Source: Argopecten irradians (lineage: Eukaryota; Mollusca; Bivalvia; Pectinida; Pectinidae). From it: a DNA stretch of 64,000 bases. Both the position numbers and the translations under genes were made by a program. The notes below the pieces were generated by a model. It was not told the origin of the DNA. It saw only the letters and a program-made list of their open reading frames with translations, and did no database searches. Positions within the stretch are counted from its first letter, which is position 1. Each line of letters opens with the position of its first letter. This document shows positions 13,013-56,123 of the stretch, piece by piece. Where the stretch lies: contig NC_091142.1 in assembly GCF_041381155.1 (NCBI RefSeq), positions 40,411,604 to 40,475,603 on the forward strand, written 5' to 3'.

Positions 13013-13020
13013 GCGTCAAA

Positions 13021-22999: not shown

Positions 23000-23209
23000 T
23001 TCCCCTACGGATTGTCTTGTTTTGTTTTTTGACCGTATATATTTTCAGAACTGTTTTGGATTGTCTTTTATGTGATTGGCTATATTACCTTCAAAGTGTT
23101 ATTTCGACACTCTAATGGAGGATGTTGCCTTGTTCCTCGCTAATTTGTATACATTCCAGTTTTCTGATGTTCTACAGTGTTGATATCTTAACCACTTTTT
23201 ATGCTTATC

Positions 23210-25271: not shown

Positions 25272-25312
25272 ATGAAGCTCGTCAGCAGAGATATTGACAA
25301 AAATAATTCAGG
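25272..25312 (+). CDS. PELO: PELO exon 1
   Basis: Encodes [13 protein letters not shown] plus two bases of a Gly codon. The donor is GG|GTAAAT. Human Pelota also starts MKLV and has the same length to the conserved VTL.PEE motif, which supports this start. Confidence 0.85.
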
Positions 25313-28300: not shown

Positions 28301-30671
28301 AGGACGGGTGGGGCCCAATAGGGGAATTAGAGGTAAATCCTTTAAATCGCTACTTGTCCTAGAGTTTTGCTTGGATTGTGACCAAATTTAGCCATAAACA
28401 TCCTTGGGGGAAGGGGAAACAGAACTTGTGTAAATTTTGGCTCTGACCCCCTGGGGGCAGGAGGGGTGGGGCCCAATAGGGGATTTAGAGGTTAATATTA
28501 TAATTCCTTCAGAAAAGAAACAATGAACCTGTATTCAGAATATTACTTGGCATTACAAACCAGGTGAGCGATATTTATGCAAAAAAACATTTTTTAACGA
28601 ATACAATAAAATGTATAGAAAAAATAACTTTAAATCTGAGGTCCCTTTGCCATCAGCAAAAGTAATGGTATTGGTTTCCAATCTCCTTTACCTACTGATA
28701 TGTTCTGGTTCTAATGATGTGTACAATAGTGTTTAGAAAAATAAAAAAGAACACCTGAATAGCCTAACACTGTAAATTACAATAATGAGTTATAATTACT
28801 GGCAGGCAGATGATTTACATGGAGTACCGATTCTCACCATCACATGTATATTTGCATGGTTACATCACTATCACATGTATATTTGCATGGTTACATCACC
28901 ATCACATGTATATTTGCATGGTTACATCACCATCACATGTATATTTGCATGGTTACATCACCATCACATGTATATTTGCATGGTTACGTCACCATCACAT
29001 GTATATTTGCATGGTTACATCACCATCACATGTATATTTGCATGGTTACATCACCATCACATGTATATTTGCATGGTTACATCACCATCACATCAATATT
29101 TGCATGGTTACATCACCATCACATGTATATTTGCATGGTTACATCACCATCACATGTATATTTACATGGTTACATCACCATCACATCTATATTTGCATGG
29201 CTACATCACCATCACATGTATATTTGCATGGTTACGTCACCATCACATCTATATTTGCATGGTTACATCACCATCACATGTAAATTTGCATGGTTACATT
29301 ACCATCACATGTATATTTACATGGTTACATCACCATCACATGTATATTTGCATGGTTACATCACCATCACATGTATATTTGCATGGTTACATCACCATCA
29401 CATGTATATTTGCATGGTTACATCACCATCACATGTATATTTGCATGGTTACATCACCATCACATGTATATTTGCATGGTTACATCACCATCACATGTAT
29501 ATTTGCATGGTTACGTCACCATCACATGTATATTTGCATGGTTACATCACCATCACATGTATATTTGTATGGTTACATGCAAATTTTTGTAATAAGTTTT
29601 TGATAGATCACACTAAATATAATACAATTTGCGTGTAATCATACATGTGAGAATGAAGATGAAAATTGTCATGTGACAAAAATTGGTCTCTGACTTTAGA
29701 GGTATGAAAATGATTTGCTATAAAGATTGTTTTATTACATGTTAAAATATTTTAGGAGTGTGACCCTAATTCCTGAGGAGAATGAGGACATGTGGCACAC
29801 CTACAACCTGGTAACCATTGGAGACTCCTTAAGGTCAACGACCATCAGGTAAAATAAAAGTAAATTGGTACCGTGTGTCAAATTTGTAGCAATTGGGACT
29901 TCTTAGATGTAATATCAGCCAGTCTTTAGCCGTCAGTTACCAACCAAGACATGGAACAGGCAAAATTAAACAACATGCACTTATTTGACACATGCTTGAA
30001 ACAATGTATGTTACACTTTCAATATAGTATCTTATCTGAATACAATATTTTACATGAAGATCTCTAGGGAACAAATTTCTTTTATGAAATTGATTTTGTT
30101 TATCCGGTTGTGTTTCTAGAAAAGTCCAGACCGAGTCAGCTACAGGGAGTGTAAGTGTAAACAAAGTAAGGACCACTCTCACTATCCATGTGGAAGCCAT
30201 AGAATTTGATACACAAGGATGTATGCTCAGGGTGAGAGGACGCAATATACAGGAAAACCAGTATGTCAAGGTAGGAAGGCACTGTTACAATTCAATATTG
30301 ATCAGTTGCAATAGAAACAATATTTTACCATACTATGGCTGATTAAATAACATTGTATTTCGAGCTAGGGTGGCACAAAGAAACAAATAGTCTTTTATCT
30401 TGGATTGCATGTAAAACAAAACTGGTTTCCCATGATCTTGCAATTCTTCCTGTAGCATTTCCGTTCAAGCAAACAATGATTTACTAATTGTATTGGTAAT
30501 TATGACCAGTCTGTATCTAAAATGTTACTGTTTTAGCAGGAAGTTTGAATCCAGGATTAAAGACATGTTTTTTTTTGTAGATGGGTGCTTATCACACCCT
30601 TGACCTGGAGCTGAATAGAAAGTTTACATTGGGTAAACAGGAATGGGACAGTGTGGTTCTGGAGAGGATCG
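25272..30671 (+). CDS. PELO: Pelota (ribosome rescue factor), N-terminal part, exons 1-4
   Basis: Spliced CDS: 25272-25312, 29756-29848, 30120-30270 and 30581-30671. Exon lengths of 41, 93, 151 and 91 nt keep one frame across three GT/AG introns and give 125 codons plus one base. Diagnostic segments are [58 protein letters not shown] and [11 protein letters not shown], all close to animal Pelota. In the family this is the N-terminal (eRF1_1) domain, which enters the decoding centre of stalled ribosomes with HBS1L. The central and C-terminal domains (full length about 385 aa) are not found downstream in this window. Exon 4 ends at a donor (GATCG|GTAGGT) that has been amplified into the array that follows. 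Recognition is firm; whether this copy is functional is open. Confidence 0.9.
26005..26795 (-). mobile_element. 3' fragment of a CR1-like LINE, split by a SINE
   Basis: 'aatcatgtaattaaaac' through 'gagttcaca' to 'atctacaattctg' matches the 3' part of the LINE at 21230-21440 with divergence. It is interrupted at 26225-26763 by a SINE and resumes for a few bases. Same orientation as the 21.3-kb element. Confidence 0.65.
26225..26763 (+). mobile_element. SINE-like retroposon with CAAA tail
   Basis: A 539-bp insertion flanked by the 13-bp direct repeat ATCTACAATTCTG (26212-26224 and 26764-26776). It ends in a CAAA-repeat tail at about 26739-26763. Tail plus target duplication are the marks of LINE-mediated retroposition. 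I cannot assign the head to a specific RNA gene with confidence. Confidence 0.75.
27005..28571 (+). mobile_element. Helentron/HINE-like element with 9 x 158-bp units (copy 1)
   Basis: Begins TTTTTAGCTCACCTGG, then a CCGT/CTGT microsatellite (27032-27066), then nine units of about 158 bp, and ends CCAGGTGAGCGAT. The sub-terminal inverted repeat is GCTCACCTGG/CCAGGTGAGC. Each unit contains 'ccaaatttggccacaaacat', 'gaacagaacttgtataaatt' and a GC-rich block with GGGGCGGGGCCC. Near-identical 26-bp sequences flank it (26984-27009 and from 28570). It lacks the terminal hairpin seen in copy 2. No coding capacity. Confidence 0.75.
28836..29576. repeat. 31-bp minisatellite, about 24 copies, one octamer motif per unit
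   Basis: The unit contains 'catcacatgtatatttgcat' and 'ggttacatcac', with a period of 31 bp. Most units hold ATTTGCAT, the reverse complement of the POU-factor octamer ATGCAAAT. Some units carry ACGTCA in place of ACATCA. All three plus-strand frames are open because 31 = 1 mod 3 and the unit has no stop. Lies in PELO intron 1, about 180 bp before exon 2. Confidence 0.9.
29756..29848 (+). CDS. PELO: PELO exon 2
   Basis: Acceptor ATTTTAG, donor CAG|GTAAAA. Encodes [17 protein letters not shown] and [11 protein letters not shown]. The motif EDMWHTYNL...GD.LR is the hallmark of the Pelota/Dom34 N-terminal domain. Confidence 0.92.
30120..30270 (+). CDS. PELO: PELO exon 3
   Basis: Acceptor GTTTCTAG, donor AAG|GTAGGA. 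Encodes [26 protein letters not shown] and [12 protein letters not shown], in line with animal Pelota. Ends in phase 0. Confidence 0.92.
30581..30671 (+). CDS. PELO: PELO exon 4 (parent of the 73-bp array)
   Basis: Acceptor TTTTTTGTAG. Encodes [15 protein letters not shown] and [13 protein letters not shown], ending in phase 1 at GATCG|GTAGGT. The last 39 nt and the following 34 intron bases form the repeat unit amplified downstream. If not spliced at this donor, the frame reads into intron and stops within about 12 codons. Confidence 0.85.
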
Positions 30672-33600
30672 GTAGGTTTATACCTGTTGTATACACTAAT
30701 TACTAGTAAACAGGAATGGGACAGTGTGGTTCTGGAGAGGATCATTAGGTTTATTACTAGTAAACAGGAATGGGACAGTGTGGTTCTGGAGAGGATCGGT
30801 AGGTTTATATCTGTTGTATACACTTATTACTAGTAAACAGGAATGGGACAGTGTGGTTCTGGAGAGGATCGGTAGGTTTATATCTGTTCTATACACTTAT
30901 TACTAGTAAACAGGAATGGGACAGTGTGGTTCTGGAGAGGATCGGTAGGTTTATATCTGTTCTACACACTAATTACTAGTAAACAGGAATGGGACAGTGT
31001 GGTTCTGGAGAGGATCGGTAGGTTTATATATGTTCTACACACTTATTACTAGTAAACAGGAATGGGACAGTGTGGTTCTGGAGAGGATCGGTAGGTTTAT
31101 ATCTGTTCTATACACTAATTACTAGTAAACAGGAATGGGACAGTGTGGTTCTGGAGAGGATCGGTAGGTTTATATCTGTTCTTATACACTTATTACTAGT
31201 AAACAGGAATGGGACAGTGTGGTTCTGGAGAGGATCGGTAGGTTTATACTGTTCTATACACTTATTACTAGTAAACAGGAATGGGACAGTGTGGTTCTGG
31301 AGAGGATCGGTAGGTTTATATCTGTGTTCTATACACTTATTACTAGTAAACAGGAATGGGACAGTGTGGTTCTGGAGAGGATCGGTAGGTTTATATCTGT
31401 TCTACACACTAATTACTAGTAAACAGGAATGGGACAGTGTGGTTCTGGAGAGGATCGGTAGGTTTATATCTGTTCTATACACACTTATTACTAGTAAACA
31501 GGAATGGGACAGTGTGGTTCTGGAGAGGATCGGTAGGTTTATATTGTTTCTCACTATTACTAGTAAACAGGAATGGGACAGTGTGGTTCTGGAGAGGATC
31601 GGTAGGTTTATATCTGTTCTACACACTAATTACTAGTAAACAGGAATGGGACAGTGTGGTTCTGGAGAGGATCGGTAGGTTTATATCTGTTCTACACACT
31701 AATTACTAGTAAACAGGAATGGGACAGTGTGGTTCTGGAGAGGATCGGTAGGTTTATACCTGTTCTATACACTTATTACTAGTAAACAGGAATGGGACAG
31801 TGTGGTTCTGGAGAGGATCGGTAGGTTTATATCTGTTCTACACACTTATTACTAGTAAACAGGAATGGGACAGTGTGGTTCTGTGTGGTTCTGGAGAGGA
31901 TCGGTAGGTTTATATCTGTTCTATACACTAATTACTAGTAAACAGGAATGGGACAGTGTGGTTCTGGAGAGGATCGGTAGGTTTATACCTGTTCTATACA
32001 CTTATTACTAGTAAACAGGAATGGGACAGTGTGGTTCTGGAGAGGATCGGTAGGTTTATATCTGTTCTACACACTTATTACTAGTAAACAGGAATGGGAC
32101 AGTGTGGTTCTGGAGAGGATCGGTAGGTTTATATCTGTTCTATACACTTATTACTAGTAAACAGGAATGGGACAGTGTGGTTCTGGAGAGGATCGGTAGG
32201 TTTATATCTGTTCTATACACTTATTACTAGTAAACAGGAATGGGACAGTGTGGTTCTGGAGAGGATCGGTAGGTTTATATCTGTTCTACACACTTATTAC
32301 TAGTAAACAGGAATGGGACAGTGTGGTTCTGGAGAGGATCGGTAGGTTTATATCTGTTCTATACACTTATTACTAGTAAACAGGAATGGGACAGTGTGGT
32401 TCTGGAGAGGATCGGTAGGTTTATATCTGTTCTATACACTTATTACTAGTAAACAGGAATGGGACAGTGTGGTTCTGGAGAGGATCGGTAGGTTTATATC
32501 TGTTCTATACACTTATTACTAGTAAACAGGAATGGGACAGTGTGGTTCTGGAGAGGATCGGTAGGTTTATATCTGTTCTATACACTTATTACTAGTAAAC
32601 AGGAATGGGACAGTGTGGTTCTGGAGAGGATCGGTAGGTTTATATCTGTTCTATACACTAATTACTAGTAAACAGGAATGGGACAGTGTGGTTCTGGAGA
32701 GGATCGGTAGGTTTATATCTGTTCTATACACTTATTACTAGTAAACAGGAATGGGACAGTGTGGTTCTGGAGAGGATCGGTAGGTTTATATATGTTCTAT
32801 ACACTTATTACTAGTAAACAGGAATGGGACAGTGTGGTTCTGGAGAGGATCGGTAGGTTTATATCTGTTCTATACACTAATTACTAGTAAACAGGAATGG
32901 GACAGTGTGGTTCTGGAGAGGATCGGTAGGTTTATACTGTTCTATACACTATTACTAGTAAACAGGAATGGGACAGTGTGGTTCTGGAGAGGATCGGTAG
33001 GTTTATATTGTTCTATACACTTATTACTAGTAAACAGGAATGGGACAGTGTGGTTCTGGAGAGGATCGGTAGGTTTATATCTGTTCTATACACTTATTAC
33101 TAGTAAACAGGAATGGGACAGTGTGGTTCTGGAGAGGATCGGTAGGTTTATATCTGTTCTACACACTTATTACTAGTAAACAGGAATGGGACAGTGTGGT
33201 TCTGGAGAGGATCGGTAGGTTTTATATCTGTTCTATACACTATTACTAGTAAACAGGAATGGGACAGTGTGGTTCTGGAGAGGATCGGTAGGTTTATATC
33301 TGTTCTACACACTTATTACTAGTAAACAGGAATGGGACAGTGTGGTTCTGGAGAGGATCGGTAGGTTTATATCTGTTCTACACTATTATTACTAGTAAAC
33401 AGGAATGGGACAGTGTGGTTCTGGAGAGGATCGGTAGGTTTATATCTGTTCTACACACTAATTACTAGTAAACAGGAATGGGACAGTGTGGTTCTGGAGA
33501 GGATCGGTAGGTTTATATCTGTTCTACACACTAATTACTAGTAAACAGGAATGGGACAGTGTGGTTCTGGAGAGGATCGGTAGGTTTATATCTGTTGTAT

Positions 33601-36265
33601 ACACTTAATTACTAGTAAACAGGAATGGGACAGTGTGGTTCTGGAGAGGATCGGTAGGTTTATATCTGTTCTATACATTATTACTAGTAAACAGGAATGG
33701 GACAGTGTGGTTCTGGAGAGGATCGGTAGGTTTATATCTGTTCTAACACTTATTACTAGTAAACAGGAATGGGACAGTGTGGTTCTGGAGAGGATCGGTA
33801 GGTTTATATCTGTTCTATACACTTATTTACTAGTAAACAGGAATGGGACAGTGTGGTTCTGGAGAGGATCGGTAGGTTTATATCTGTTCTATACACTTAT
33901 TACTAGTAAACAGGAATGGGACAGTGTGGTTCTGGAGAGGATCGGTAGGTTTATATCTGTTCTATACACTTATTACTAGTAAACAGGAATGGGACAGTGT
34001 GGTTCTGGAGAGGATGTTATTCTGTTTAACACTATTACTAGTAAACAGGATGGGGTTCTGGAGAGGATCGGTAGGTTTATATCTGTTCTATACACTAATT
34101 ACTAGTAAACAGGAATGGGACAGTGTGGTTCTGGAGAGGATCGGTAGGTTTATATCTGTTCTATACACTTATTACTAGTAAACAGGAATGGGACAGTGTG
34201 GTTCTGGAGAGGATCGGTAGGTTTATATCTGTTCTATACACTATTACTAGTAAACAGGAAGGAATGGGACAGTGTGGTTCTGGAGAGGTCGGATGGTAGG
34301 TTTATATCTGTTCTATACACTTATTACTAGTAAACAGGAATGGGACAGTGTGGTTCTGGAGAGGATCGGTAGGTTTATATCTGTTCTATACACTTATTAC
34401 TAGTAAACAGGAATGGGACAGTGTGGTTCTGGAGAGGATCGGTAGGTTTATATCTGTTCTATACACTTATTACTAGTAAACAGGAATGGGACAGTGTGGT
34501 TCTGGAGAGGATCGGTAGGTTTATATCTGTTCTATACACTTATTACTAGTAAACAGGAATGGGACAGTGTGGTTCTGGAGAGGATCGGTAGGTTTATATC
34601 TGTTCTATACACTTAATTACTAGTAAACAGGAATGGGACAGTGTGGTTCTGGAGAGGATCGGTAGGTTTATATCTGTTCTATACACTTATTACTAGTAAA
34701 CAGGAATGGGACAGTGTGGTTCTGGAGAGGATCGGTAGGTTTATATCTGTTCTATACACTTATTACTAGTAAACAGGAATGGGACAGTGTGGTTCTGGAG
34801 AGGATCGGTAGGTTTATACCTGTTCTACACACTTATTACTAGTAAACAGGAATGGGACAGTGTGGTTCTGGAGAGGATCGGTAGGTTTATATCTGTTCTA
34901 TACACTTATTACTAGTAAACAGGAATGGGACAGTGTGGTTCTGGAGAGGATCGGTAGGTTTATATCTGTTCTATACACTTATTACTAGTAAACAGGAATG
35001 GGACAGTGTGGTTCTGGAGAGGATCGGTAGGTTTATATCTGTTCTATACACTTATTACTAGTAAACAGGAATGGGACAGTGTGGTTCTGGAGAGGATCGG
35101 AGGTTTATATCTGTTCTACACACTAATTACTAGTAAACAGGAATGGGACAGTGTGGTTCTGGAGAGGATCGGTAGGTTTATATCTGTTCTATACACTAAT
35201 TACTAGTAAACAGGAATGGGACAGTGTGGTTCTGGAGAGGATCGGTAGGTTTATATCTGTTCTATACACTTATTACTAGTAAACAGGAATGGGACAGTGT
35301 GGTTCTGGAGAGGATCGGTAGGTTTATATCTGTTCTATACACTTATTACTAGTAAACAGGAATGGGACAGTGTGGTTCTGGAGAGGATCGGTAGGTTTAT
35401 ATCTGTTCTATACACTTATTACTAGTAAACAGGAATGGGACAGTGTGGTTCTGGAGAGGATCGGTAGGTTTATATCTGTTCTACACACTAATTACTAGTA
35501 AACAGGAATGGGACAGTGTGGTTCTGGAGAGGATCGGTAGGTTTATATCTGTTCTATACACTAATTACTAGTAAACAGGAATGGGACAGTGTGGTTCTGG
35601 AGAGGATCGGTAGGTTTATATCTGTTCTATACACTTATTACTAGTAAACAGGAATGGGACAGTGTGGTTCTGGAGAGGATCGGTAGGTTTATATCTGTTC
35701 TATACACTTATTACTAGTAAACAGGAATGGGACAGTGTGGTTCTGGAGAGGATCGGTAGGTTTATATCTGTTCTACACACTTATTACTAGTAAACAGGAA
35801 TGGGACAGTGTGGTTCTGGAGAGGATCGGTAGGTTTATATCTGTTCTATACACTTATTACTAGTAAACAGGAATGGGACAGTGTGGTTCTGGAGAGGATC
35901 GGTAGGTTTATATCTGTTGTATACACTTATTACTAGTAAACAGGAATGGGACAGTGTGGTTCTGGAGAGGATCGGTAGGTTTATATCTGTTCTATACACT
36001 TATTACTAGTAAACAGGAATGGGACAGTGTGGTTCTGGAGAGGATCGGTAGGTTTATATCTGTTCTACACACTAATTACTAGTAAACAGGAATGGGACAG
36101 TGTGGTTCTGGAGAGGATCGGTAGGTTTATATCTGTTCTATACACTTATTACTAGTAAACAGGAATGGGACAGTGTGGTTCTGGAGAGGATCGGTAGGTT
36201 TATATCTGTTCTATACACTAATTACTAGTAAACAGGAATGGGACAGTGTGGTTCTGGAGAGGAAC
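30633..36265 (+). repeat. 73-bp minisatellite derived from PELO exon 4 and its splice donor, about 77 copies
   Basis: The period is 73 bp, with copies of 65-83 bp. Each unit = 39 bp of exon 4 ('caggaatgggacagtgtggt', 'tctggagaggatcg') + donor GTAGGT + 'ttatatctgttctatacact' + 'tattacta'. The first unit is the exon itself, which fixes the direction of origin. Exonic and intronic parts are about equally conserved, so the array is young or homogenised rather than under coding selection. In the exon frame every unit ends in TAG. Defective units occur at about 34010-34060 (donor lost, short), 34255-34300 and 31870-31890 (internal duplication). The final unit (from 36229) diverges after GAGAGGA and lacks the donor. 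Confidence 0.95.
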
Positions 36266-36924
36266 AAAGAATTGATTGAGAATGTGTAGTGTATACTTTA
36301 TCACACGGAGACCCAGGGTCAATTACACTACACTTATCATTTACAGTAAATAAGCTTACTGTAGTGACATCACATTGTTTGACCATGGTTGATGCACTAC
36401 ACGCTTATATCATGTGGAAATAAGTGAAGCATAGCAATCAACTGTGGGTGTCCGATGATAATTTCATCAGTGATTTTATTATTGTAATCACCATATTCAT
36501 GGATTAAAATTTCATTTATATTTGTTTCATATATTTCTAAAATTTCTTAAAAAGAATTCATCATAATACAATCCATGTTTCAGTGACTTTTGATGTTTCA
36601 CTAAAGAAGTGTAATCACTACCTTGACCTTAGCAAAATTTGCTGATCACTTCAATTTACCATGTAGTTTTACACTATAACACACAGACTCTAGTAAAGTC
36701 AGAAAGTCACATGTTGCACGCATTTTATGTTTTTTTTTGTATCTCCTAAAAGCTGAGAAATGTACCAGTCTGGTTATGTGCTGTAGAGGCTAGGGATATA
36801 GAATACCATAAAAAACGTGCGATGAAATTTCATGAAAAAAAATCGCTGCAAAAACGACTACAAGTATCTTAGAACTTTCAAACTGTAAATCATGACCTTT
36901 TAAACAAGGACATAGTCATTCAGA
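36266..36924. other. AT-rich spacer after the PELO array
   Basis: No PELO exon seen. Contains 'cactacac'-type inverted words at about 36285-36410 that may be a foldback remnant. Confidence 0.5.
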
Positions 36925-42113: not shown

Positions 42114-42202
42114 TCAGGGGTTAAAGATGAACAGGGTATCCTCATCTGTACCATGGCTTTTTCTTGCTTTGTCAAATTTGTCCATTCGGCTGCAACATAC
42201 AT
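42114..42202 (-). CDS. GUCD1: GUCD1 exon 9 (last coding)
   Basis: Acceptor TTTTGTTCCAG. Encodes VCCSRMDKFDKARKSHGTDE then DTLFIFNP and TGA. Corresponds to the human end ...YGTDEDILFVYLDS. Confidence 0.9.
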
Positions 42203-45200
42203 CTGGAACAAAAAACATTTCTCCACTAGTTTTTAAACATGACATTTTTTGATAATCTTAAAGATGCTCCAGTTTTTGATAGTGAAAAAGTACCATTTGT
42301 CAGCGATGGAGCATCTTTAATGTCATTGATAAACAAGTCATCAATGATTCTGGATTCCAGTGACCAGGTAGCTACCTTTGTATGAAATTTCAACAAAATT
42401 TATCAATAAGTTATCTCTGGAAAGACAGACAGACAGACAAGAAATTAATACTATATTCCCCTCCTGTTTTTCAGAGGACTAATATCAATCTGCCATGAGA
42501 GAGTTCAAAAGATTAGGAGAACATTCCACTTTGTGTGAGACCTCTACCAATCACAGTACTTAAGTTCTTGCTACCCTCGTGTATGAATGGGGGTTATTTA
42601 TAGTAATGTCAAACTCTGTCAGTCGATTGATTTACTCTCAAGTTTATATGGCGACTAAGTTTCACTGGACATTTTCATTTATTCTGTTTGTCTGGTTGGA
42701 ACTAGTTGTTTATTCATTAATCAATAACCAACTTGGTGATTTTATATTGTTTTCAGAGAAGTCTGGACAAAGTTCTCATAGGTCTATATCAAAATCTAGA
42801 GGTCAGTCAGGATTTATACTTGAAATAATTACATTAACAAGAGACCCATGGACCTTGACGGCCAACTGACTATTGGCACAAAACAACATAGTCATATAGT
42901 ATACAGTAGTGGCTAAGTATAAAAGCAATACAACAAGTTTCCAAAATATTTCATGACTTTGACCTTAAAAGTACATAAAGGTCATTCACTTGAACAAACT
43001 AGGTAGCTCTTTATCCTAGACCCAATTTGAGTAACCTAGGTCTTTTGGTTCTTGAGAAGAAGTTGTTTAAAGAATTTAGCCTATTTGACCCCAGAGACCT
43101 TTAATGAAGGTCAAGGTCATTTATTTGGACAAACTTGGTAGCCCTTCATCCCAGCATGCTAATGGCAAAACATCAGTACCCTAGGCCTTTCGGTTATTGA
43201 GAAGAAGTTGTTGAATGAAAAGTTTACGCAGGGCCCACGGAGCAACGTGCACGACGACAGACGAAGCATGATGACAATAGGTCATCCTGACCCTTCGTGT
43301 TAAATGACCTAAAAATGGTCCAACCAGACCAACCCCGTAAACAAAAACGCCCATCCTCTTTCTGCCATTATAACTCAGATAAACATGAGGTTTCTCAAAA
43401 TGACCTTCACTTTCTGTGACTTATAGCATATAAGAGTAAGAACCCTGCCCGTTTGACTCCCGAGTGTACGAGTTAAAGGCAGCCAACGATAAAATCATCC
43501 CTAATTAACATTAATTACATATCCTCACTTACCTTCATCATATGAAGGGTTTTTATAGAACACTCGTTTCTTTCTTTGATCAAATCCACACACAACCACA
43601 AAATGTCCTGAAAATACATAGAAAAATTACATTTGTACTATCAGTAAGATAATAAATAGTTGATATATCATAAAACTAACAAGAGGCCTAGAGGGCTTGT
43701 ATCGCTCACCTGGTTTGTAATGCCAAGTAATGTTCTGAATACAGGTTCATTGTTTCTTCTCTGAAGGAATTTTAATATTAACCTCTAAATCCCCTATTGG
43801 GCCCCAACCCTCCCGCCTCCAGGGGGTCAGAGCCAAGATTTATACAAGTTCTGTTCCCCTTCTTCCAAGGATGTTTATGGCCAAATTTGGTCACAATCCC
43901 AACAAAACTCTAGGACAAGAAGTGATTTATAGGATTTACCTCTATTTCCCCTATTGGGCCCCACCCGTCCTGCCCTCGGGGGGCCAGAGTCAAAATTTAT
44001 ACGAGTTCTGTTCCCCTTCTTCCCCAAGGATGTTTGTTGCCAAATTTGGTTACAAACCATGCAGAACTCTATGACTAGTAGCAATTTAAAGGATTTACCT
44101 CTATTTCCCCTATTGGGCCCCGCCCCTCCTGCCCCCGGGGGACCAGAGCCAAAATTTATACAAGTTCTGTTCCCCTTCCCCCAAGGATGTTTGTGGCCAA
44201 ATTTGGTTACATTCCATTCAGAACTCTATGACTAGTAGCGATTTAAAGGATTTACCTCTATTACCCCTATTGGGCCCCGCCCCTCCTGCCCCCCGGGGAC
44301 CAGAGCCAAAATTTATACAAGTTCTGTTCCCCTTCCCCAAAGGATGTTTGTGGCCAAATTTGGTTACATTCCATTCAGAACTCTATGACTAGTAGCGATT
44401 TAAAGGATTTACCTCTATTTCCCCTATTGGGCCCCGCCCCTCCTGCCCCCGGGGGACCAGAGTCAAAATTTACACAAGTTCTGTTCCCCTTCCCCCAAGG
44501 ATGTTTGTGGCAGAATTTGGTTACAATTCATGTAGAACTCTATTACAAGTAGCGATTTAAAGGATTTACCTCTATTTCCCCTATTGGGCCCCGCCCCTCC
44601 TGCCCCTGGGGGACCAGAGCCAAAATTTATACAAGTTCTGTTCCCCTTCCCCAAAGGATGTTTGTGGCCAAATTTGGTTACATTCCATTCAGAACTCTAT
44701 GACAAGTAGCGATTTCAAAGGATTTACCTCTATTACCCCTATTGGGCCCCGCCCCTCCTGCCCCCGGGGGACCAGAGCCAAAATTTATACAAGTTCTGTT
44801 CCCCTTCCCCCAAGGATGTTTGTGGCCAAATTTGGTTACATTCCATTCAGAACTCTATGACTAGTAGCGATTTAAAGGATTTACCTCTATTTCCCCTATT
44901 GGGCCCCGCCCCTCCTGCCCCCGGGGGACCAGAGCCAAAATTTATACAAGTTCTGTTCCCCTTCCCCCAAGGATGTTTGTGGCCAAATTTGGTTACATTC
45001 CATGCAGAACTCTATGACTAGTAGCGATTTAAAGGATTTACCTCTATTTCCCCTATTGGGCCCCGCCCCTCCTGCCCCCGGGGGACCAGAGCCAAAATTT
45101 ATACAAGTTCTGTTCCCCTTCCCCCAAGGATGTTTGTGGCCAAATTTGGTTACATTCCATTCAGAACTCTATGACTAGTAGCGATTTAAAGGATTTACCT

Positions 45201-48200
45201 CTATTTCCCCTATTGGGCCCCGCCCCTCCTGCCCCCTGGGGACCAGAGCCAAAATTTATACAAGTTCTGTTCCCCTTCCCCCAAGGATGTTTGTGGCCAA
45301 ATTTGGTTACATTCCATTCAGAACTCTATGACAAGTAGCGATTTAAAGGATTTACCTCTATTTCCCCTATTGGGCCCCGCCCCTCCTGCCCCTGGGGGAC
45401 CAGAGCCAAAATTTATACAAGTTCTGTTCCCCCTCCCCCAAGGATGTTTGTGGCCAAATTTGGTTACAATCCATGCAGAACTCTATGACAAGTAGCGATT
45501 TAAAGGATTTACCTCTATTTCCCCTATTGGGCCCCGCCCCTCCTGCCCCTGGGGGACCAGAGCCAAAATTTATACAAGTTCTGTTCCCCCTCCCCCAAGG
45601 ATATTTGTGGCCAAATTTGGTTACAATCCATTCAGAACTCTATGACTAGTAGCGATTTAAAGGATTTACCTCTATTTCCCCTATTGGGCCCAGCCCCTCC
45701 TGCCCCTGGGGGACCAGAGCCAAAATTTATACAAGTTCTGTTCCCCTTCCCCCAAGGATGTTTGTGGCCAAATTTGGTTACATTCCATTCAGAACTCTAT
45801 GACTAGTAGCGATTTAAAGGATTTACCTCTATTTCCCCTATTGGGCCCCGCCCCTCCTGCCCCGGGGGACCAGAGCCAAAATTTATACAAGTTCTGTTCC
45901 CCTTCCCCCAAGGATGTTTGTGGCCAAATTTGGTTACATTCCATTCAGAACTCTATGACAAGTAGCGATTTAAAGGATTTACCTCTATTTCCCCTATTGG
46001 GCCCCGCCCCTCCTGCCCCCGGGGGACCAGAGCCAAAATTTACACAAGTTCTGTTCCCCTTCCCCCAAGGATGTTTGTGGTGGAAATTTGGTTACAATTC
46101 ATGTAGAACTCTATGACAAGTAGCGATTTAAAGGATTTACCTCTATTTCCCCTATTGGGCCCCGCCCCTCCTGCCCCCGGGGGACCAGAGCCAAAATTTA
46201 TACAAGTTCTGTTCCCCTTCCCCAAAGGATGTTTGTGGCCAAATTTGGTTACATTCCATTCAGAGCTCTATGACAAGTAGCGATTTTAAAGGATTTACCT
46301 CTATTTCCCCTATTGGGCCCCGCCCCTCCTGCCCCCGGGGGGTCAGAGCCAAAATTTATACAAGTTCTGTTCCCCTTCCCCCAAGGATGTTTGTGGCCAA
46401 ATTTGGTTACAAACCATGCAGAACTCTAGGACAAGTAGCGATTTATAGGATTTACCTCTATTTCCCCTATTGGGCCCCGCCCCTCCTGCCCCTGGGGGAC
46501 CAGAGACCAAAATTTATACAAGTTCTGTTCCCCTCCCCCAAGGATGTTTGTGGCCAAATTTGGTTACATTCCATTCAGAACTCTATGACTAGTAGCGATT
46601 TAAAGGATTTACCTCTATTTCCCCTATTGGGCCCCGCCCCTCCTGCCCCCGGGGGACCAGAGCCAAAATTTATACAAGTTCTGTTCCCCTTCCCCAAAGG
46701 ATGTTTGTGGCCAAATTTGGTTACATTCCATTCAGAACTCTATGACAAGTAGCGATTTAAAGGATTTACCTCTATTTCCCCTATTGGGCCCCGCCCCTCC
46801 TGCCCCCTGGGGACCAGAGCCAAAATTTATACAAGTTCTGTTCCCCTTCCCCCAAGGATGTTTGTGGCCAAATTTGGTTACAATCCATTCAGAACTCTAT
46901 GACAAGTAGCGATTTAAAGGATTTACCTCTATTTCCCCTATTGGGCCCCGCCCCTCCTGCCCCCGGGGGACCAGAGCCAAAATTTATACAAGTTCTGTTC
47001 CCCTTCCCCAAAGGATGTTTGTGGCCAAATTTGGTTACATTCCATTCAGAGCTCTATGACAAGTAGCGATTTCAAAGGATTTACCTCTATTTCCCCTATT
47101 GGGCCCCGCCCCTCCTGCCCCCGGGGGACCAGAGCCAAAATTTATACAAGTTCTGTTCCCCTTCCCCAAGGATGTTTGTGGCCAAATTTGGTTACATTCC
47201 ATTCAGAACTCTATGACTAGTAGCGATTTAAAGGATTTACCTCTATTTCCCCTATTGGGCCCCGCCCCTCCTGCCCCCTGGGGGACCAGAGCCAAAATTT
47301 ATACAAGTTCTGTTCCCCTTCCCCCAAGGATGTTTGTGGCCAAATTTGGTTACATTCCATTCAGAACTCTATGACTAGTAGCGATTTAAAGGATTTACCT
47401 CTATTTCCCCTATTGGGCCCCGCCCCTCCTGCCCCCTGGGGACCAGAGTCAAAATTTATACAAGTTCTGTTCCCCTTCCCCAAGGATGTTTGTGGTAGAA
47501 TTTGGTTACAATTCATGTAGAACTCTATTACAAGTAGCGATTTAAAGGATTTACCTCTATTTCCCCTATTGGGCCCCGCCCCTCCTGCCCCCAGGGGACC
47601 AGAGCCAAAATTTATACAAGTTCTGTTCCCCTTCCCCAAAGGATGTTTGTGGCCAAATTTGGTTACATTCCATTCAGAGCTCTATGACAAGAAGCGATTT
47701 CAAAGGATTTACCTCTATTTCCCCTATTGGGCCCCGCCCCTCCTGCCCTCGGGGGACCAGAGCCAAAAGTTTATACAAGTTCTGTTCCCCTTCCCCCAAG
47801 GATGTTTGTGGCCAATTTTGGTTACAATTCATGCAGAACTCTAGGACAAGTAGCGATTTAAAGGATTTACCTCTATTACCCCTATTGGGCCCCGACCCCT
47901 CCTGCCCCTGGGGGACCAGAGCCAAAATTTATACAAGTTCTGTTCCCCTTCCCCAAAGGATGTTTGTGGCCAAATTTGGTTACATTCAATTCAGAACTCT
48001 ATGACAAGTAGCGATTTAAAGGATTTACCTCTATTTCCCCTATTGGGCCCCGCCCCTCCTGCCCCCGGGGGACCAGAGCCAAAATTTATACAAGTTCTGT
48101 TCCCCTTCCCCCAAGGATGTTTGTGGCCAAATTTGGTTACCATTCCATTCAGAAGCTCTATGACAAGAAGCGATTTAAAGGATTTACCTATATTACCCCT

Positions 48201-51200
48201 ATTGGGCCCCTGCCCCTCTGCCCCGGGGGGGTCAGAGCCAAAATTTATACAAGTTCTGTTCCCCTTCCCCCAAGGATGTTTGTGGCCAAATTTAGTTACA
48301 TTCCATTCAGAACTCTAGGACAAGTAGTGATTTAAAGGATTTACCTCTATTTCCCCTATTGGGCCCCGCCCCTCCTGCTCCCAGGGGATGAGAGCCAAAA
48401 ATTTATACAAGTTCTGTTCCCCTTCCCCCAAGGATGTTTGTGGCCAAATTTAGTAACATTCCATTCAGAACTCTATGACTAGTAGCGATTTAAAGGATTT
48501 ACCTCTATTTCCCCTATTGGGCCCCGCCCCTCCTGCCCCCGGGGGACCAGAGCCAAAATTTATACAAGTTCTGTTCCCCTTCCCCCAAGGATGTTTGTGG
48601 CCAAATTTGGTTACAATCCATTCAGAACTCTAGGACAAGTAGCGATTTAAAGGATTTACCTCTATTTCCCCTATTGGGCCCCGCCCCTCCTGCCCCCGGG
48701 GGGTCAGAGCCAAAATTTATACAAGTTCTGTTCCCCTTCCCCCAAGGATGTTTGTGGCCAAATTTGGTTACAATCCATGAAGAACTCTATGACAAGTAGC
48801 AATTTAAAGGATTTACCTCTATTACCCCTATTGGGCCCCACCCCTCCTGCCCCCGGGGGGTCAGAGCCAAAATTTATACAAGTTCTGTTCCCCTTCCCCA
48901 AAGGATGTCTTTGTTGCCAAATTTGGTTACATTCCATTCAGAACTCTATGACAGTAGCGATTTAAAGGATTTACCTCTATTTACCCCTATTGGGCCCCGC
49001 CCCTCCTGCCCCCGGGGGACCAGAGCCAAAATTTATACAAGTTCTGTTCCCCTTCCCCAAAGGATGTTTGTGGCCAAATTTGGTTACATTCCATTCAGAA
49101 CTCTATGACTAGTAGCGATTTAAAGGATTTACCTCTATTTCCCCTATTGGGCCCCGCCCCTCCTGCCCCCGGGGGACCAGAGCCAAAATTTATACAAGTT
49201 CTGTTCCCCTTCCCCCAAGGATGTTTGTGGCCAAATTTGGTTACATTTCATGTAGAACTCTATGACAAGTAGCGATTTAAAGGATTTACCTCTATTTCCC
49301 CTATTGGGCCCCGCCCCTCCTGCTCCCTGGGGATCAGAGCCAAAATTTATACAAGTTCTGTTCCCCTTCCCCCAAGGATGTTTGTGGCCAAATTTGGTTA
49401 CATTCCATTCAGAACTCTATGACAAGTAGTGATTTAAAGGATTTACCTCTATTTCCCCTATTGGGCCCCGCCCCTCCTGCCCCCGGGGGATCAGAGCCAA
49501 AATTTATACAAGTTCTGTTCCCCTTCCCCCAAGGATGTTTGTGGCCAAATTTAGTTACATTCCATTCAGAACTCTATGACTAGTAGCGATTTAAAGGATT
49601 TACCTCTATTTCCCCTATTGGGCCCCGCCCCTCCTGCCCCCGGGGGACCAGAGCCAAAATTTATACAAGTTCTGTTCCCCTTCCCCCAAGGATGTTTGTG
49701 GCCAAATTTGGTTACATTCCATTCAGAACTCTATGACTAGTAGCGATTTAAAGGATTTACCTCTATTTCCCCTATTGGGCCCCGCCCCTCCTGCCCCCGG
49801 GGGACCAGAGCCAAAATTTATATAAGTTCTGTTCCCCTTCCCCCAAGGATGTTTGTGGCCAAATTTGGTTACATTCCATTCAGAACTCTATGACTAGTAG
49901 CGATTTAAAGGATTTACCTCTATTTCCCCTATTGGGCCCCGCCCCTCCTGCCCCTGGGGGATCAGAGCCAAAATTTATACAAGTTCTGTTCCCCTTCCCC
50001 CAAGGATGTTTGTGGCTAATTTTGGTTACAATTCATGCAGAACTCTAGGACAAGTAGCGATTTAAAGGATTTACCTCTATTACCCCTATTGGGCCCCGCC
50101 CCTCCTGCCCCTGGGGGACCAGAGCCAAAATTTATACAAGTTCTGTTCCCCCTCCCCCAAGGATGTTTGTGGTCAAATTTGGTTACAATCCATGCAGAAC
50201 TCTAGGACAAGAAGCGATTTATAGGATTTACCTCTATTTCCCCTATTGGGCCCCGCCCCTCCTGCCCCGGGGGGGACAGAGCCAAAATTTATACAAGTTC
50301 TGTTTCCCCTCCCCCAAGGATATTTGTGGCCAAATTTGGTTACAATCCATGCAGAACTCTATGACTAGTAGCGATTTAAAGGAAATGTTGACGAACGGAC
50401 GGACAACGGACGCCGCGCCATGACATAAGCTTACCGGCCCTTTGGGCCAGGTGAGCTAAAAATGTTGCCAGAGTGGACGACTAATACCTTTGTTAGTAAT
50501 GTCTTTATTTCCTTTTGCAAAATTTACTCTTGTTCTTTGAAGTTTTGCATATGACTATATATGAAGACGTATTCTGCTGTACACATACCAATATGGATAA
50601 CTGACTTGCATTTTTGTGTGTGACAAAAACAATTACCTAGATAATTGTGTGAATTTAATAGATGGCAAATACATTTCAATCCAAACTGGAACTCAAATTT
50701 CCATATTGTAATGAGTATATGAAATAGCATTAAGAAATCTTTTCCAGGACATCTTAAGTTAAGTTTATTTATCAATTGAGGATCTAAACATGGGTATTAA
50801 ATTTGTCTGACCATATATGTCAGACATTATAGATTATATACTGTCAGACAAATTTAGCACCTATGGATCTAAATAGAGATTCTCTGGTCAATACTAGCCG
50901 CAATATATCGCTCGGCTAGGGAGAACTTCTCTTTAGCTCGATCGGTTGAGCATCAGACTAGTAATCCAGAGGTCCCGAGTTCGATCCCTGGCAGAGGCAG
51001 GTATTAAATTTATTGTAAATCCTGCACCCTGTTACATATATATTAAATAGTACTATGTACAATGTACATGAAAGTGAGGTTACTTAAACATTTGAATTAT
51101 TTCATATCTTAAACTATAAAGGAGCTCCTGATTCTCCAAATGATTATCTAATCTGTATACAAAGATGTATACATTTAGTGTTAAAACAACATATCTATAA

Positions 51201-54200
51201 CTATAAAGGAGTTCCTGATTATCTAATCTGTATACAAAGATGTATATATTTAGTGTTAAAACAACATATCTATACCTATAAAGGAGTTCCTGATTATCTA
51301 ATCTGTATACAAAGATGTATACATTTAGTGCTAAAACAACATTCTTGGGAAGCTTGTTCCATATTTTTACAATTCTAGGCCAAACATGTTCTAACGAATA
51401 TCCAATCTGGAATGTTGTGGAAAAACTTTGAATGGATGTCTCCTAATTCCCTGTCTGTGTAATTTATTTGTCCACATTTGAATAAAGATTGTTGTACAGT
51501 TATCATAACATTATTTGTTTTTTTAAAGATCTCGATCTTTATTAGCCTAAACTGTGATATTTCTAAATAATCGACCCATAGATTCTTATGGGACCACTGT
51601 AGTAAGTAGAATAGTGCAATGATATTCAGATGCCAATATTCTTTGAACAATTTGAAAATATGATATCTTACCTTGGTAAGTTCCACAGCACCATTTGAAG
51701 CACGAAAAACAAGGGCGTCTCTAAAAATTAAATTTGTCAGTTAGTACTTTAAGTGTTAAGTTGCCATATCTAGAATTTCAAACACAAAAAATAACTTGAT
51801 GAAATATATCAATTATTCTCTTACATTGAACCCTATCATTATACAAGAACTACATTATACATTCTAAAGGTAAAAACATTCTCAATTAAGAAAAGAATCT
51901 TTGATAATCAAAATCAAGAAAATATTTGATGAAAGTAAAATGTATAATTAGTACAAATCATGTAGAATTCCACAAACAAATTTTACCAGGCCAATGCTGA
52001 ACTCTCTCCCAATAACGTTACTGATACAAAATCTATTTATTGATATTTCTTTTTGATGGTTAAACATGAACTCTGGTGACACTGAATGACCTTGCACTGA
52101 CCTTGTCACACCAGATACACTCGAGGTAGTTCCAGTCCACCAGACAGATCACCAGGTTCTCCTTGGCGACGTGATTCACAATGTCTGATATAGGCACTGA
52201 GCTGTAAATAGGATCAAACTCAGTATAGTTATAGGAGGGAATCTGGGCTGGTACAAAAAGCCTAGTAAAGGGCAGTCACAACATCATAGGGTACAAAGTT
52301 ATCATGATAAGAATAATTTGTTATACTCACCATTTTTCTACCTCTATATTATTGGATGCAGCTTCAGAAAACATCTTTCCAACTCTGTCTTCATCTTGAT
52401 TGAAGTGAATTTTGTAGAATGGCTATAGGAAACAGAACACTTTGAATAATTGTTTTATTCTAATTGTATTTATAGATATTAACATTGTGTCCTCTAAAAG
52501 TTCTGTTGATTTTTTTTTTATAAATGTGACAGATTAATCCCCATTGCTATCTTTTTCTAATTAGTAATGACCAACTTAAACAAGCTGAAAACAATTACAC
52601 TACAGTTACATGTGTATAATTTCAGTTGATCCTAGTTAAATATCAATTCAGAAACCAAGCTTTGTTATAAGGTTAACACCATTAAACATGGATACTGACT
52701 TATAAATAATGTGATTAGGAAAGTATACCTTTTTTGCATATTCTTGGTCCACTCCCAGAGTCACAGTCGTTAGCTTTGTTCTTATATCATGGAACTTGAA
52801 CAGGTAGGCTAAATCTATTGTCCAAATACTGCATCACAAAATATATCACTGGCTATAGTTGTATAATCAGAGGGTTGTTTGTTATTCTATGAGAATATAG
52901 TTCACATATTTATTATTCAGTTTTTTAATTTTACTGAATTATCTCCCTTGCAGAAAGGTATCAGTTGTGACTTCATTATTTGAGGCATAATTTACAATAT
53001 GATTACATATTTTATCTATGCTATCAATGCATATCTCATAATATTTTGAGAAATATAATCAGTTTGCTGATACTTTGTCTAATCAAAAGACACATGTTTC
53101 CTCACATAATTTTACAGATTTAGATGCCCTCCATATATAACATCATGTGTTTAACCACTGTGTTCTAGTTTGATAAAACTGACCTTTCTCCACAGTTAAG
53201 TGCCTCAAAGTCAGAAGTGTAAACACTGTGAACATTCCTCTTGAAGTATCTGCAAAACATATGGCATAAATATCTGGTGATATATACCTGGTATCATCAC
53301 TAAATAGATTCAATATCTGATTTACTGACACATTCAGTAAATAGATAGTTCTATATTCTGTGGGTATACCAAAATTACACAACATATCATCCATAGTGCA
53401 ATCGCAACAAACCAATATATTTCTCTCTCTCTTTTACAAACCAATATACTTTGCAAGTTTAATTATATACAAGAGCTGTTGGAGAACAGCAAAGCTTGCC
53501 TATTCAGAAGAAGTTGATGTTCAAGTATTTACTATTTAAACATGGAAATATGACAAATTAACAGACTCAAAAACCCCCTAAAAGGGCCCCAAATTGGTTG
53601 TATTATCACGTTCAGGATCCATACACATTAGGAAAATAAAATCATAAACATTTATAATGACTTATGCTAAAACAATTGACAAAATAGAAACTTGCTAAAA
53701 AATTTAACATGGAATTATGACAAATTAACAGACTCAAAAACCCCCTAAAGGGCCCCAAATTGGTTGTATTATCACGTTCAGCATCCATACACATTAGGAA
53801 AATAAAATCATAAACATTTATGATGACTTAAGCTTAAACAATTGACGAAACAGAAACTTGCTCAAAAACTTGAACGTGAAATGGGACGCCAACGCTGACG
53901 CCGACACCAGGGTGACAACATTAGCTCCCCCTATTCTTCGAATAGGCGAGCTAAAAATGATTGACAATCAATAACAGTACGCGTCTAAATAGTCTAATTA
54001 CATATACCACAAAGCAATAACTTAATATTTTTGTATGCAACATGATTGGTAGTCAATGTTACACAAATTATCTCTCCTTATATACATGTAGACCTTTCTC
54101 AATTACATGTAACACAAAGCAACAACTTTAATATTTTTATATGTGACACAATTGGTAGCTAATATTACATGACTAATATCAATATTTAAACGAAATGTTT

Positions 54201-56123
54201 TTATTTTTTTTCTATGTTAAAAAAATTTGATAGTCAATGAAATGTTTTCCTTTCTACTGTCAAGGACATTTGATTAAAAAAGTCAGCCAAAATTATCTAA
54301 TTATCTCCCCTTTGCCCAGGATTAAAAGAGCAAAATTGACAGTCCTTATTACTAAATATTTCAGTACACTAAAACTTTTCTGATCTTTTAGAATTTGTCT
54401 GTTATTGGTGTATGTTAAATTCTAAAAGTATGGATACATTGTTTGCTAACTTGTACTGATCACCCTGTCCTGACATATAAATATAGTTGAGTTTTTTTTG
54501 TTTTTTTTTTCATCTCTGCTGAGGATGGATATATATTCACACACAAACCTGAGCACCATGCAGCAACATGCCAGCCCACAGTCCCAGGAGTATGACTGTA
54601 TATGTGTTGGCACTTTCAACTGAACTTGTCTTTGACTGTCTGCACCCTTATCCTTAAGCTTAATTCCTCCATCTACAAGTAGGAAACAGAAACATGTGAT
54701 ATACCGGGTACTTTGTTAAGACTAAAGTATGGTTTCTGCATAATATGCATAGCTTTTCCCTCTGTGGATTTTTTTTAGAAATTTCCAAAAAGGTGCTAGC
54801 TGTTTCCATTATCTCTTTTAAATCATTTTGGTTTTTTAGATGATTTCTCCTAGAGTTAGTCATAGAATTTTGTTTTTATTTCAACTGGGCCATCACAAGA
54901 ACATTGCATGATTTTATTTCAAATAATTTTAAGATAAAGATGAAGATAATTTCCTGTTGTAAAATATGGAGCAATGGCACAAAGTCTTTGTTCAGCATAT
55001 ATTACTGACAGAGTACAAAAACACTCAGCTTTACACCAATAGCCTAGGTTCAGAAAAAATGTGCATTTATGAAGGTAAAGGGTGTTTTGCGATTTTCTTC
55101 AAATTTATGTCTGCTACATTGTACTTTGATCTAATCATTTACTTGAGTTCTTTCCCTTATAAAAAATGGGGATTACATATTTGTTGATTGGATCAAAGTA
55201 GCAGAAATACATTTAATATGGCACACATTGAATTTGAGAATGGTCTAGTTAGGATCACAAGAAGATTATAGGCATGCCAGTCCCCAGATACCACCAGTAA
55301 AAGAAACCTGAACCATCATCCTACTCAACACTGATCAGAGCCTTCAATTTCGCTATGATATGTTCCTGGAATGTAAAGGTCGTAAATCAACCCTGGAAAT
55401 TGAGTAATTCCCACTGATGGAACTTGAAAAGAAGTTTTAGATATGTACAATTTTATGGGCAGTGGATGGGGCATGCCACATGGTGAGAAATACATAAGCT
55501 TATAATTAAGCTATCCATAAGCATCATCGTTATTTTCATACCACAGTTTTCAGATTGTTGTGATATTTTACTTAACAAATGAACAGTAGGGTTCAACAGA
55601 TCCTCCTTTATTAGTGTTTATTTCTGAAAGTTGGTTCCTTTTCGGACGAAATCAAAACTTCAGTAATGAAAGTAAAAGTATTTAACTTGATCTAAATTGT
55701 AAAGTGACACTAAAAGATCTAAATGAATTTTAAAATAAAGAAACAATATTCAACTACAAAAAAAATTGGGTGTCCCATATCATATGTAATAATTATTAGA
55801 CTAAATTAGTATTGTATTGTCCCGATGTGTACATGGCAGGACACAACTGCATATCTGCATGGATAACAGTTCATGTGAAAGTTCAGCCCCTTGTCACAAT
55901 GTCGGACATGTAATTATTTTCATTAGAGAAAACTCCGATGTTACTGTGGTCATATAACTTGGATTTCCACTCCGTCAGATCGATTTAAACATGACATCAT
56001 AATGTTTTATTTATAGCCTGGGGATAATCTCGGATGATCATGAATTTCGTCGTCAGCTAACAGTTTCTTCGTGATCAGCTGGTAACTTAAAGCTATCTTA
56101 CCGCCTTTGACAGTTTCCGCCAT
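42114..56123 (-). CDS. GUCD1: GUCD1 (guanylyl cyclase domain-containing protein 1), complete, 9 exons
   Basis: CDS on the minus strand: 56123-56102, 54672-54549, 53249-53184, 52828-52729, 52422-52331, 52201-52102, 51720-51672, 43607-43533 and 42202-42114. Total 717 nt, 238 aa plus stop (human about 240 aa). All eight introns are GT/AG with matching phases. Landmarks matching vertebrate GUCD1: YSWDCGLACCCMVL (residues 35-48), SIWTIDLAYL, TLGVDQEY, YQGHFVVVCGFD (183-194), FYKNPSYDE and SHGTDEDTLF. The family (Guanylate_cyc_2) is named after a plant protein; cyclase activity in animals is not established. C39 in a DCG motif, H186 in GHF and N204-P205 resemble the catalytic layout of C39-type cysteine peptidases (inference). 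Convergent with PELO. The start follows from the exon 1-2 join giving one open frame. Confidence 0.93.
42258..42320. mobile_element. 63-bp hairpin MITE in GUCD1 intron 8
   Basis: TTAAAGATGCTCCA (42258-42271) is perfectly inverted as TGGAGCATCTTTAA (42307-42320). It lies 56 bp from the exon 9 acceptor. A GACA-repeat (about 42425-42440) follows, then a hairpin-like end ('cccctcctg...cagaggac'), so it may be one end of a larger element. Confidence 0.55.
42955..43316 (+). mobile_element. HINE-like element, two 150-bp units, GUCD1 intron 8
   Basis: Two diverged units share 'aaggtcat', 'gacaaac..ggtag', 'cctaggtcttttggtt' and 'gagaagaagttgtt'. They are followed by a CGACGACAGACG stretch, a GGTCATCCTGACC palindrome and the terminal word GACCTAAAAATG, like the ends at 50462 and 53958. 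Left boundary uncertain. Confidence 0.5.
43533..43607 (-). CDS. GUCD1: GUCD1 exon 8
   Basis: Acceptor ATTTTCAG, donor GAAG|GTAAG. Encodes GHFVVVCGFDQRKKRVFYKN then PSYDE. Carries the conserved His (GHF) and the Asn-Pro motif of the family. Confidence 0.92.
43679..50462 (-). mobile_element. Helentron/HINE-like element with about 42 x 158-bp units (copy 2), GUCD1 intron 7
   Basis: Left end on the + strand: CAAGAGGCCTAGAGGGCTTG (terminal hairpin), then TATCGCTCACCTGG. Right end: ACGG-type microsatellite (about 50391-50410), GGCCCTTTGGGCC hairpin, CCAGGTGAGCTAAAAATG. The interior is about 42 copies of the same 158-bp unit as copy 1, inverted, with units mostly within a few substitutions of each other. 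Each unit has a CCCGCCCC GC-box and a CCCCCGGGGG-type block. Opposite orientation to copy 1, but both are in the same sense relative to their host genes. The many open frames ('[19 protein letters not shown]' and so on) are repeat artefacts. Confidence 0.8.
50463..50920. other. GUCD1 intron 7 remainder with an inverted repeat
   Basis: AT-rich. TAAATTTGTCTGAC (50798-50811) is inverted as GTCAGACAAATTTA (50843-50856). Confidence 0.5.
50926..51040 (+). mobile_element. tRNA-derived SINE head or tRNA pseudogene
   Basis: Polymerase III A-box-like TAGCTCGATCGG (50934-50945) and B-box-like GAGTTCGATCC (50978-50988) are spaced as in a tRNA, and the loop reads CTAGTAA (anticodon AGT). Anticodon and T stems have mismatches and the acceptor stem pairs poorly, so this is not a working tRNA gene. 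Preceded by a CTAGCCG/CGGCTAG hairpin. Extent of the body uncertain. Confidence 0.5.
51114..51345. repeat. Three tandem units of 75-87 bp
   Basis: 'ctataaaggag', 'cctgattatctaatctgtat' and 'acaaagatgtata' repeat three times. The second-to-third spacing is 75 bp; the first unit has a 12-bp extra segment. Confidence 0.8.
51672..51720 (-). CDS. GUCD1: GUCD1 exon 7
   Basis: A 49-nt exon, acceptor TTTTTAG, donor CAAG|GTAAGA. Encodes RRPCFSCFKWCCGTYQ plus one base, and the frame is fixed by YQ|GHF across the next intron. Cys-rich, like the equivalent human segment. Confidence 0.85.
52102..52201 (-). CDS. GUCD1: GUCD1 exon 6
   Basis: Acceptor TTTACAG, donor AAG|GTCAGT. Encodes SVPISDIVNHVAKENLVICL then VDWNYLECIWCDK. 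Aligns with human TVSVQDIQAHLAQGHVAIVL. Confidence 0.9.
52331..52422 (-). CDS. GUCD1: GUCD1 exon 5
   Basis: Acceptor CCTATAG, donor ATG|GTGAGT. Encodes PFYKIHFNQDEDRVGKMFSE then AASNNIEVEK plus two bases of Cys. Confidence 0.9.
52729..52828 (-). CDS. GUCD1: GUCD1 exon 4
   Basis: Acceptor GATGCAG, donor AAG|GTATAC. Encodes IWTIDLAYLFKFHDIRTKL then TTVTLGVDQEYAKK. WTIDLAYL and TLGVD are family signatures. Confidence 0.93.
53184..53249 (-). CDS. GUCD1: GUCD1 exon 3
   Basis: Acceptor TTTTGCAG, donor AAAG|GTCAGT. Encodes YFKRNVHSVYTSDFEALNCG then E plus two bases of Ser. Confidence 0.88.
53470..53958 (+). mobile_element. HINE-like element with two 168-bp units, GUCD1 intron 2
   Basis: Starts CAAGAG, then a perfect hairpin GCTGTT-GGAG-AACAGC, then AGCTTGCCTATTC. 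Ends GAATAGGCGAGCTAAAAATG, so the sub-terminal inverted repeat is GCTTGCCTATTC/GAATAGGCGAGC. Two internal units share 'gacaaattaacagactcaaa' and 'ttggttgtattatcacgttc'. Same architecture as the 158-bp-repeat element but a different body. Confidence 0.7.
54549..54672 (-). CDS. GUCD1: GUCD1 exon 2
   Basis: Acceptor CTTGTAG, donor CTCAG|GTTTGT. Encodes GGIKLKDKGADSQRQVQLKV then PTHIQSYSWDCGLACCCMVL. Carries the WDCGLAC motif with the putative nucleophile Cys39. Confidence 0.92.
55345..55412. mobile_element. Single-ended remnant of the same MITE family
   Basis: 'ccttcaatttcgctatga' followed by a degraded end ('ggaatgtaaaggtcgtaaatc') resembles one terminal repeat of the foldback MITE. The other end is not seen. 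Confidence 0.4.
56102..56123 (-). CDS. GUCD1: GUCD1 exon 1 (start codon)
   Basis: Encodes MAETVKG plus one base, with donor GCG|GTAAGA. Phase matches exon 2 (G|AT = Asp). The context AACGATGG has A at -3 and G at +4, a good animal start context. Confidence 0.85.

Follow-up and report, generated by a model that had tools for sequence, protein, structure and literature searches.

A minisatellite carrying the exon 4 splice donor in the bay scallop PELO gene

Pelota is a ribosome-rescue protein that serves messenger surveillance. In the genome assembly of the bay scallop, Argopecten irradians, the junction between exon 4 and intron 4 of its gene, PELO, is followed by dozens of near-identical copies of itself. 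Which of these donors does the message use, do repeat units enter it as mini-exons, and how far can the array and the gene model around it be trusted? We addressed these questions in a 64,000-nucleotide stretch of the assembly (845.8 Mb in 1508 contigs), hereafter the window (C9:40411604-40475603), in which an earlier sequence-only reading had drawn attention to the array.

Anatomy of the 73-bp array

The features of the window on which the argument turns are given below, in window coordinates; P0001 is a protein found by protein search and described in the next section.

25272..25312, + strand: PELO exon 1 (coding part), with usable splice sites
29756..29848, + strand: PELO exon 2, with usable splice sites
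30120..30270, + strand: PELO exon 3, with usable splice sites
30581..30671, + strand: PELO exon 4, whose final 39 bp open array copy 1; P0001 confirms this exon end
30672..30677, + strand: genuine exon 4 donor, GTAGGT, used in the message represented by P0001
30633..36263, + strand: array with a 73-bp unit, in 77 full copies and one part copy; a full copy joins the exon 4 end and its donor to 34-35 bp of intron
30707..30760, + strand: unit 2, 54 bp, donor destroyed (GATCATTAGG)
36229..36263, + strand: part unit ending the array in mid exon copy; likely breakpoint of an assembly error or rearrangement
42123..54625, - strand: GUCD1-like gene, matched in five stretches and in convergent orientation to PELO; it stands where the last PELO exons should be in the assembly

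Joined, PELO exons 1-4 encode 125 residues with no stop, over a genomic span of 5.4 kb from exon 1 to exon 4. We found no PELO exons beyond exon 4 in the window, in the 100 kb downstream or in the 50 kb upstream. The last exon of the GUCD1-like gene (42123-42200) lies ~6 kb past the array, on the strand opposite to PELO.

Tandem Repeats Finder reported a period of 73, 75.6 copies and 96% matches at 30751-36263, with further rows starting at 30633 and a 54-bp copy among them. Anchoring on TAAACAGGA gave 78 unit starts, corresponding to the 77 full units and the part unit, which ends at 36263 (...GAGAGGA up to that point, ACAAAGAATTG after it). The unit consists of 38-39 bp from the end of PELO exon 4, the donor (GATCG/GTAGGT) and the intronic stretch, and array copy 1 is the true end of exon 4. 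The unit's 38-bp exonic part is unchanged in 72 of the 78 copies; GATCGGTAGGT is kept in 73 of them, the other five lacking the donor motif, and TTACTAG closes 77. A 77-copy minisatellite of the PELO exon 4 splice junction, with this unit anatomy and with near-identical donors throughout, is what the sequence-only reading had described, and our analysis bears it out. Because the donor of unit 2 is destroyed, the decoy nearest the true exon 4 donor is unusable.

Variation within the array is narrowly placed. Alignment of 72 of the 77 full units, with five more heavily altered ones set aside, shows 43 substitutions; every one sits at one of five intronic sites, and the remaining 68 positions have none. 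The pattern resembles constraint, yet we make no claim of selection on the exonic sequence, as a recent spread of a few seed variants together with consensus merging explains it. Single-base indels, counted in units of 72 or 74 bp, fall on the same five variable sites in 6 of 10 cases (chance 0.078 each, p 3.7e-5), as expected if the consensus merged different copies, and a local mutation hotspot could do likewise.

Other repeats and frames lie nearby. Intron 1 of PELO holds a 31-bp array of 24 copies (28834-29578), ~180 bp before exon 2. A 157-bp satellite forms two arrays, at 27076-28496 and 43777-50383, whose consensus sequences look by eye like mutual reverse complements; the second, of 6.6 kb, lies inside the GUCD1-like gene. 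A reverse transcriptase frame occupies 21944-23044 on the minus strand (RVT_1 match, 2.6e-35), and a frame that is similar by eye lies on the plus strand at 60385-61085, of which the tested part, 60639-61085, gave no Pfam match. An exon-like frame at 12988-13239 (plus strand) has a weak match to BID (BH3-interacting; E 1.9e-5), just under the curated cut-off.

The donor used in the PELO message

The protein search returned P0001, a protein of 380 aa that is 100% identical to residues 1-125 of the window's PELO. It is encoded on seven contigs, none longer than 1382 bases; since exons 1-4 span 5.4 kb of genomic DNA, these contigs most likely derive from spliced RNA. Judged by sequence identity, the source species would be Argopecten irradians, the nearest named relative being Ylistrum balloti at 98%. 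The later part of P0001 matches distant PELO exons, described below, at 40/40 residues in one exon and 86/87 in another, where the lone difference sits at the exon edge.

At the exon 4 junction P0001 reads ...VVLERI-ETACDPTTHADLAAVV..., in which LERI runs on as ETACDP; this is the sequence expected where ATCG meets exon 5. P0001 passes from LERI straight into exon 5, so the first donor was used and no unit was added in that message. Had splicing failed there, the reading frame would have met a TAG at codon 137, the in-frame stop that the sequence-only reading had foreseen. With the stop already in the first unit, all later donors come after it, as we verified for donors 3, 4, 40 and 76.

Among the best 120 of 513 matches to the read-through form, only P0121, a RefSeq gene model, carries the read-through tail at 100%, the next match reaching 82%. 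No transcript-derived read-through protein occurs among those 120 matches, and P0121 is the sole case in them that bears on unit retention in transcripts. Unit-bearing transcripts could be rare or degraded, and protein matches of this kind are no proof of their absence. The question of donor choice and mini-exons that the sequence-only reading had left open is largely answered: the message behind P0001 uses the first donor and contains no unit, and this is probably the main form.

PELO in two halves of the assembly

Queried first with human PELO and then with P0001, the whole assembly yields one PELO only, in two halves. Exons 1-4 lie on the plus strand of C9 at 40.44 Mb; residues ~213-380 lie on the minus strand of C9 near 43.98 Mb, ~3.5 Mb away, and a local search near this distant half added a short exon for residues ~201-214. 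Residues ~127-200, which make up exon 5, were found by neither query of the assembly nor in the fetched loci. A second complete PELO was sought and rejected: the other eRF1_1 matches, on C11, are not PELO, and tblastn with PELO finds nothing there.

The sequence around the distant half is visibly damaged. The small exon is followed by exactly 5000 N and then by exactly 5000 bases of the 73-bp array, on PELO's strand and riddled with long G runs (C9 43.987-43.993 Mb). After this block N continues for ~16.5 kb, 2 kb of which were unread, up to a POP1-like gene (POP1_N match, E 1.3e-19). These N runs may be assembly gaps. At the other end the join at 36263/36264 is gapless, with no N in the window or in the 100 kb downstream, so that a misjoin, if there is one, lies inside a contig. 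By eye, the list of open reading frames for 36264-42400 contains no POP1-like exons, which would have been a direct sign of a flipped segment beside the array. P0121 is recorded as pelota homolog of Argopecten irradians, 136 aa, and equals the window's own translation, ending in the first array unit; RefSeq's PELO is truncated because the assembly is broken at the array.

Among the matches listed, the unit occurs in three places only, namely the window, the damaged block next to the distant half of PELO, and contig C1495, and none lies at an unrelated locus, as copies of a dispersed satellite would; the match counts across the assembly are lower bounds. C1495 (3251 bp) consists of the array alone and has raw-read-like errors: 1390 alignment columns hold 1129 matches, 86 substitutions and 175 indels, compared with 1966/2007 and 1980/2023 matches in two stretches of the window array. 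If the three pieces do not overlap they total up to ~190 unit lengths, and 77 is an unreliable copy number.

The exon 4 array is not the only repeat at a PELO splice site. On the minus strand of the distant locus (C9 43.98 Mb; L027, positions 555-740), a repeat spans the exon 7 donor, and as in the exon 4 array its unit joins the exon end and donor (TCTCTCAAAG/GTAACCC) to intron; it differs in having a 54-bp unit and three extra copies only. P0001 is spliced at the first exon 7 donor as well (HSLK-EVLQD). A 60-bp array (L027 1286-1746, minus strand) stops a few bases short of the exon 6 acceptor, and an altered copy of the start of exon 6 may be part of it. We asked of these observations whether splice junctions are favored birthplaces of minisatellites, and rejected the idea. 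Tandem copies span 2 of 13 PELO junctions (the exon 4 and exon 7 donors), with the exon 6 acceptor abutted by the 60-bp array, and 0 of 8 GUCD1 junctions, one of which was examined one base off its true position; the resulting 2 of 21 tested junctions is no excess over random window positions, of which 94 of 400 are spanned. The region is rich in minisatellites, and some happen to straddle exon ends.

How, then, did PELO come to be split? The split itself and the absence of exon 5 are direct observations, and we infer an assembly error rather than a real inversion, because a complete message from a gene present only once implies that the gene is intact somewhere. The alternative is that a real inversion of ~3.5 Mb broke in the array, leaving one chromosome with a truncated, 136-aa PELO while the other haplotype stayed whole. 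Two halves opposite in orientation on one scaffold, with the array at both ends, are the pattern that one break in the array would leave, and the left join is gapless; but at the other end lie N and array sequence in corrupted form, no exon 5 is found at all, PELO is known from a complete message, and ordinary assembly failure accounts for all of these observations. We therefore consider an inversion unlikely. We find it barely credible that an assembler or gap filler multiplied one junction and so produced the array as an artefact. Corrupted, G-filled copies and the indels of consensus merging do show bad assembly, but copies recur in the separate contig C1495 with its raw-read-like errors, variants at the five shared sites occur scattered along the window array, and a further donor-spanning repeat, a clean one, is present at exon 7 of PELO. 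The sequence-only reading had named two results that would undo it, expression of PELO only from another complete locus and an array that is an assembly artefact, and these hold in part: the array proves real, but it lies in broken assembly and its number of copies cannot be relied on.

A further alternative concerns function. Later donors might compete with the first, and unit-bearing messages, stopped at codon 137, would be destroyed, so that copy number sets PELO output, as the sequence-only reading had proposed. In its favor, 73 of 78 units keep the donor, the codon-137 stop is in frame, the GT is gone from the decoy closest to the true donor, a loss that selection could favor, and, by analogy, longer donor-bearing alleles of the human ABCA7 VNTR go with lower expression, while retention of one unit occurs there at a low level, in the portion of that report used here (PMC5954066). 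Against it, no transcript-derived read-through protein appears among the best 120 of 513 matches, and one broken decoy at that position could easily be chance, as five of 78 units lack the donor motif. Such competition strikes us as improbable. The fuller form of the proposal, in which dozens to perhaps two hundred decoy donors in an array of variable length set the yield of PELO message, a longer array giving more later-donor, codon-137-stopped and destroyed transcripts, seems to us slightly more doubtful again. Were it true, PELO's own role in messenger surveillance could form a loop.

The explanation that we favor, and hold to be likely, is a real minisatellite in intron 4 of a single bay scallop PELO gene that is spliced normally at its first donor, and whose array defeated assembly. 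The array would have arisen by tandem duplication across the exon 4/intron 4 boundary and grown by unequal exchange or slippage. The outermost, genuine donor is joined to exon 5 and the whole array removed with the intron, as the transcript behind P0001 shows and as probably holds for most messages. Exon definition is the likely reason: the true upstream acceptor would serve the first copy only, and the others would be 38-nt pseudo-exons behind a weak TTATTACTAG. Too long and too uniform to assemble, the array would then have been ended in mid unit, with the last PELO exons placed ~3.5 Mb off on the other strand and exon 5 lost. A regulatory effect is not needed to explain the array.

Two consequences follow from this reading. 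The locus is a natural test of donor choice: dozens of donors share their local sequence, and of these the message behind P0001 takes the outermost, in keeping with exon definition. The locus also serves as a warning, in that a conserved gene stands in RefSeq as a 136-aa stub where a splice-junction minisatellite probably defeated the assembler; claims of PELO gene loss in the bay scallop, and PELO expression counts, would be wrong.

Comparison with known donor-bearing repeats

The sequence-only reading knew of no described minisatellite of this kind, and in this it was mistaken. In human ABCA7, according to the part of the report drawn on here, intron 18 contains a VNTR of ~12 to 427 units of 25 bp that include the exon 18 donor (PMC5954066). 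There, one unit is retained at a low level, 2 +/- 1%, and longer arrays are associated with lower expression and more skipping of exon 19 (PMC5954066). Our literature search, which took in its sources in part, found no donor-bearing array in molluscs.

A second precedent is more distant. Internal tandem repeats alter the exon-intron structure of human duplicated genes (PMC2812944), and, in the portion of that paper considered here, these too are genic minisatellites that extend over both exon and intron sequence and can involve splice sites. They differ from the PELO array in averaging ~4 copies of ~30 bp, in belonging to recent paralogues, and in being kept in exons or made into introns (PMC2812944).

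The likeness to ABCA7 is closer. Both are tandem arrays of minisatellite-size units (in PELO 73 bp, 77 full and a part unit) adjoining an exon whose donor is included in the unit, in 73 of 78 units in PELO and in every unit in ABCA7 as reported there (PMC5954066); the ABCA7 VNTR ranges from hundreds of bases to more than 10 kb, a range to set beside the window array at 30633-36263. As P0001 attests for PELO, the host gene is spliced to a full-length message. In both genes use of the next donor leads to a premature stop, in ABCA7 through a frameshift (PMC5954066). The measured length variation and the effects on splicing and expression belong to ABCA7, to which PELO is likened by anatomy alone; such arrays can matter for expression there (PMC5954066), and by analogy the PELO array might too. 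As quoted in that report, the ABCA7 unit begins with the donor GT and holds no exon sequence (PMC5954066), whereas the PELO unit carries 38-39 bp of coding exon. By this analogy of anatomy, the PELO array appears to be built on the same plan as the ABCA7 VNTR, and what is new in it is the piece of coding exon in each unit.
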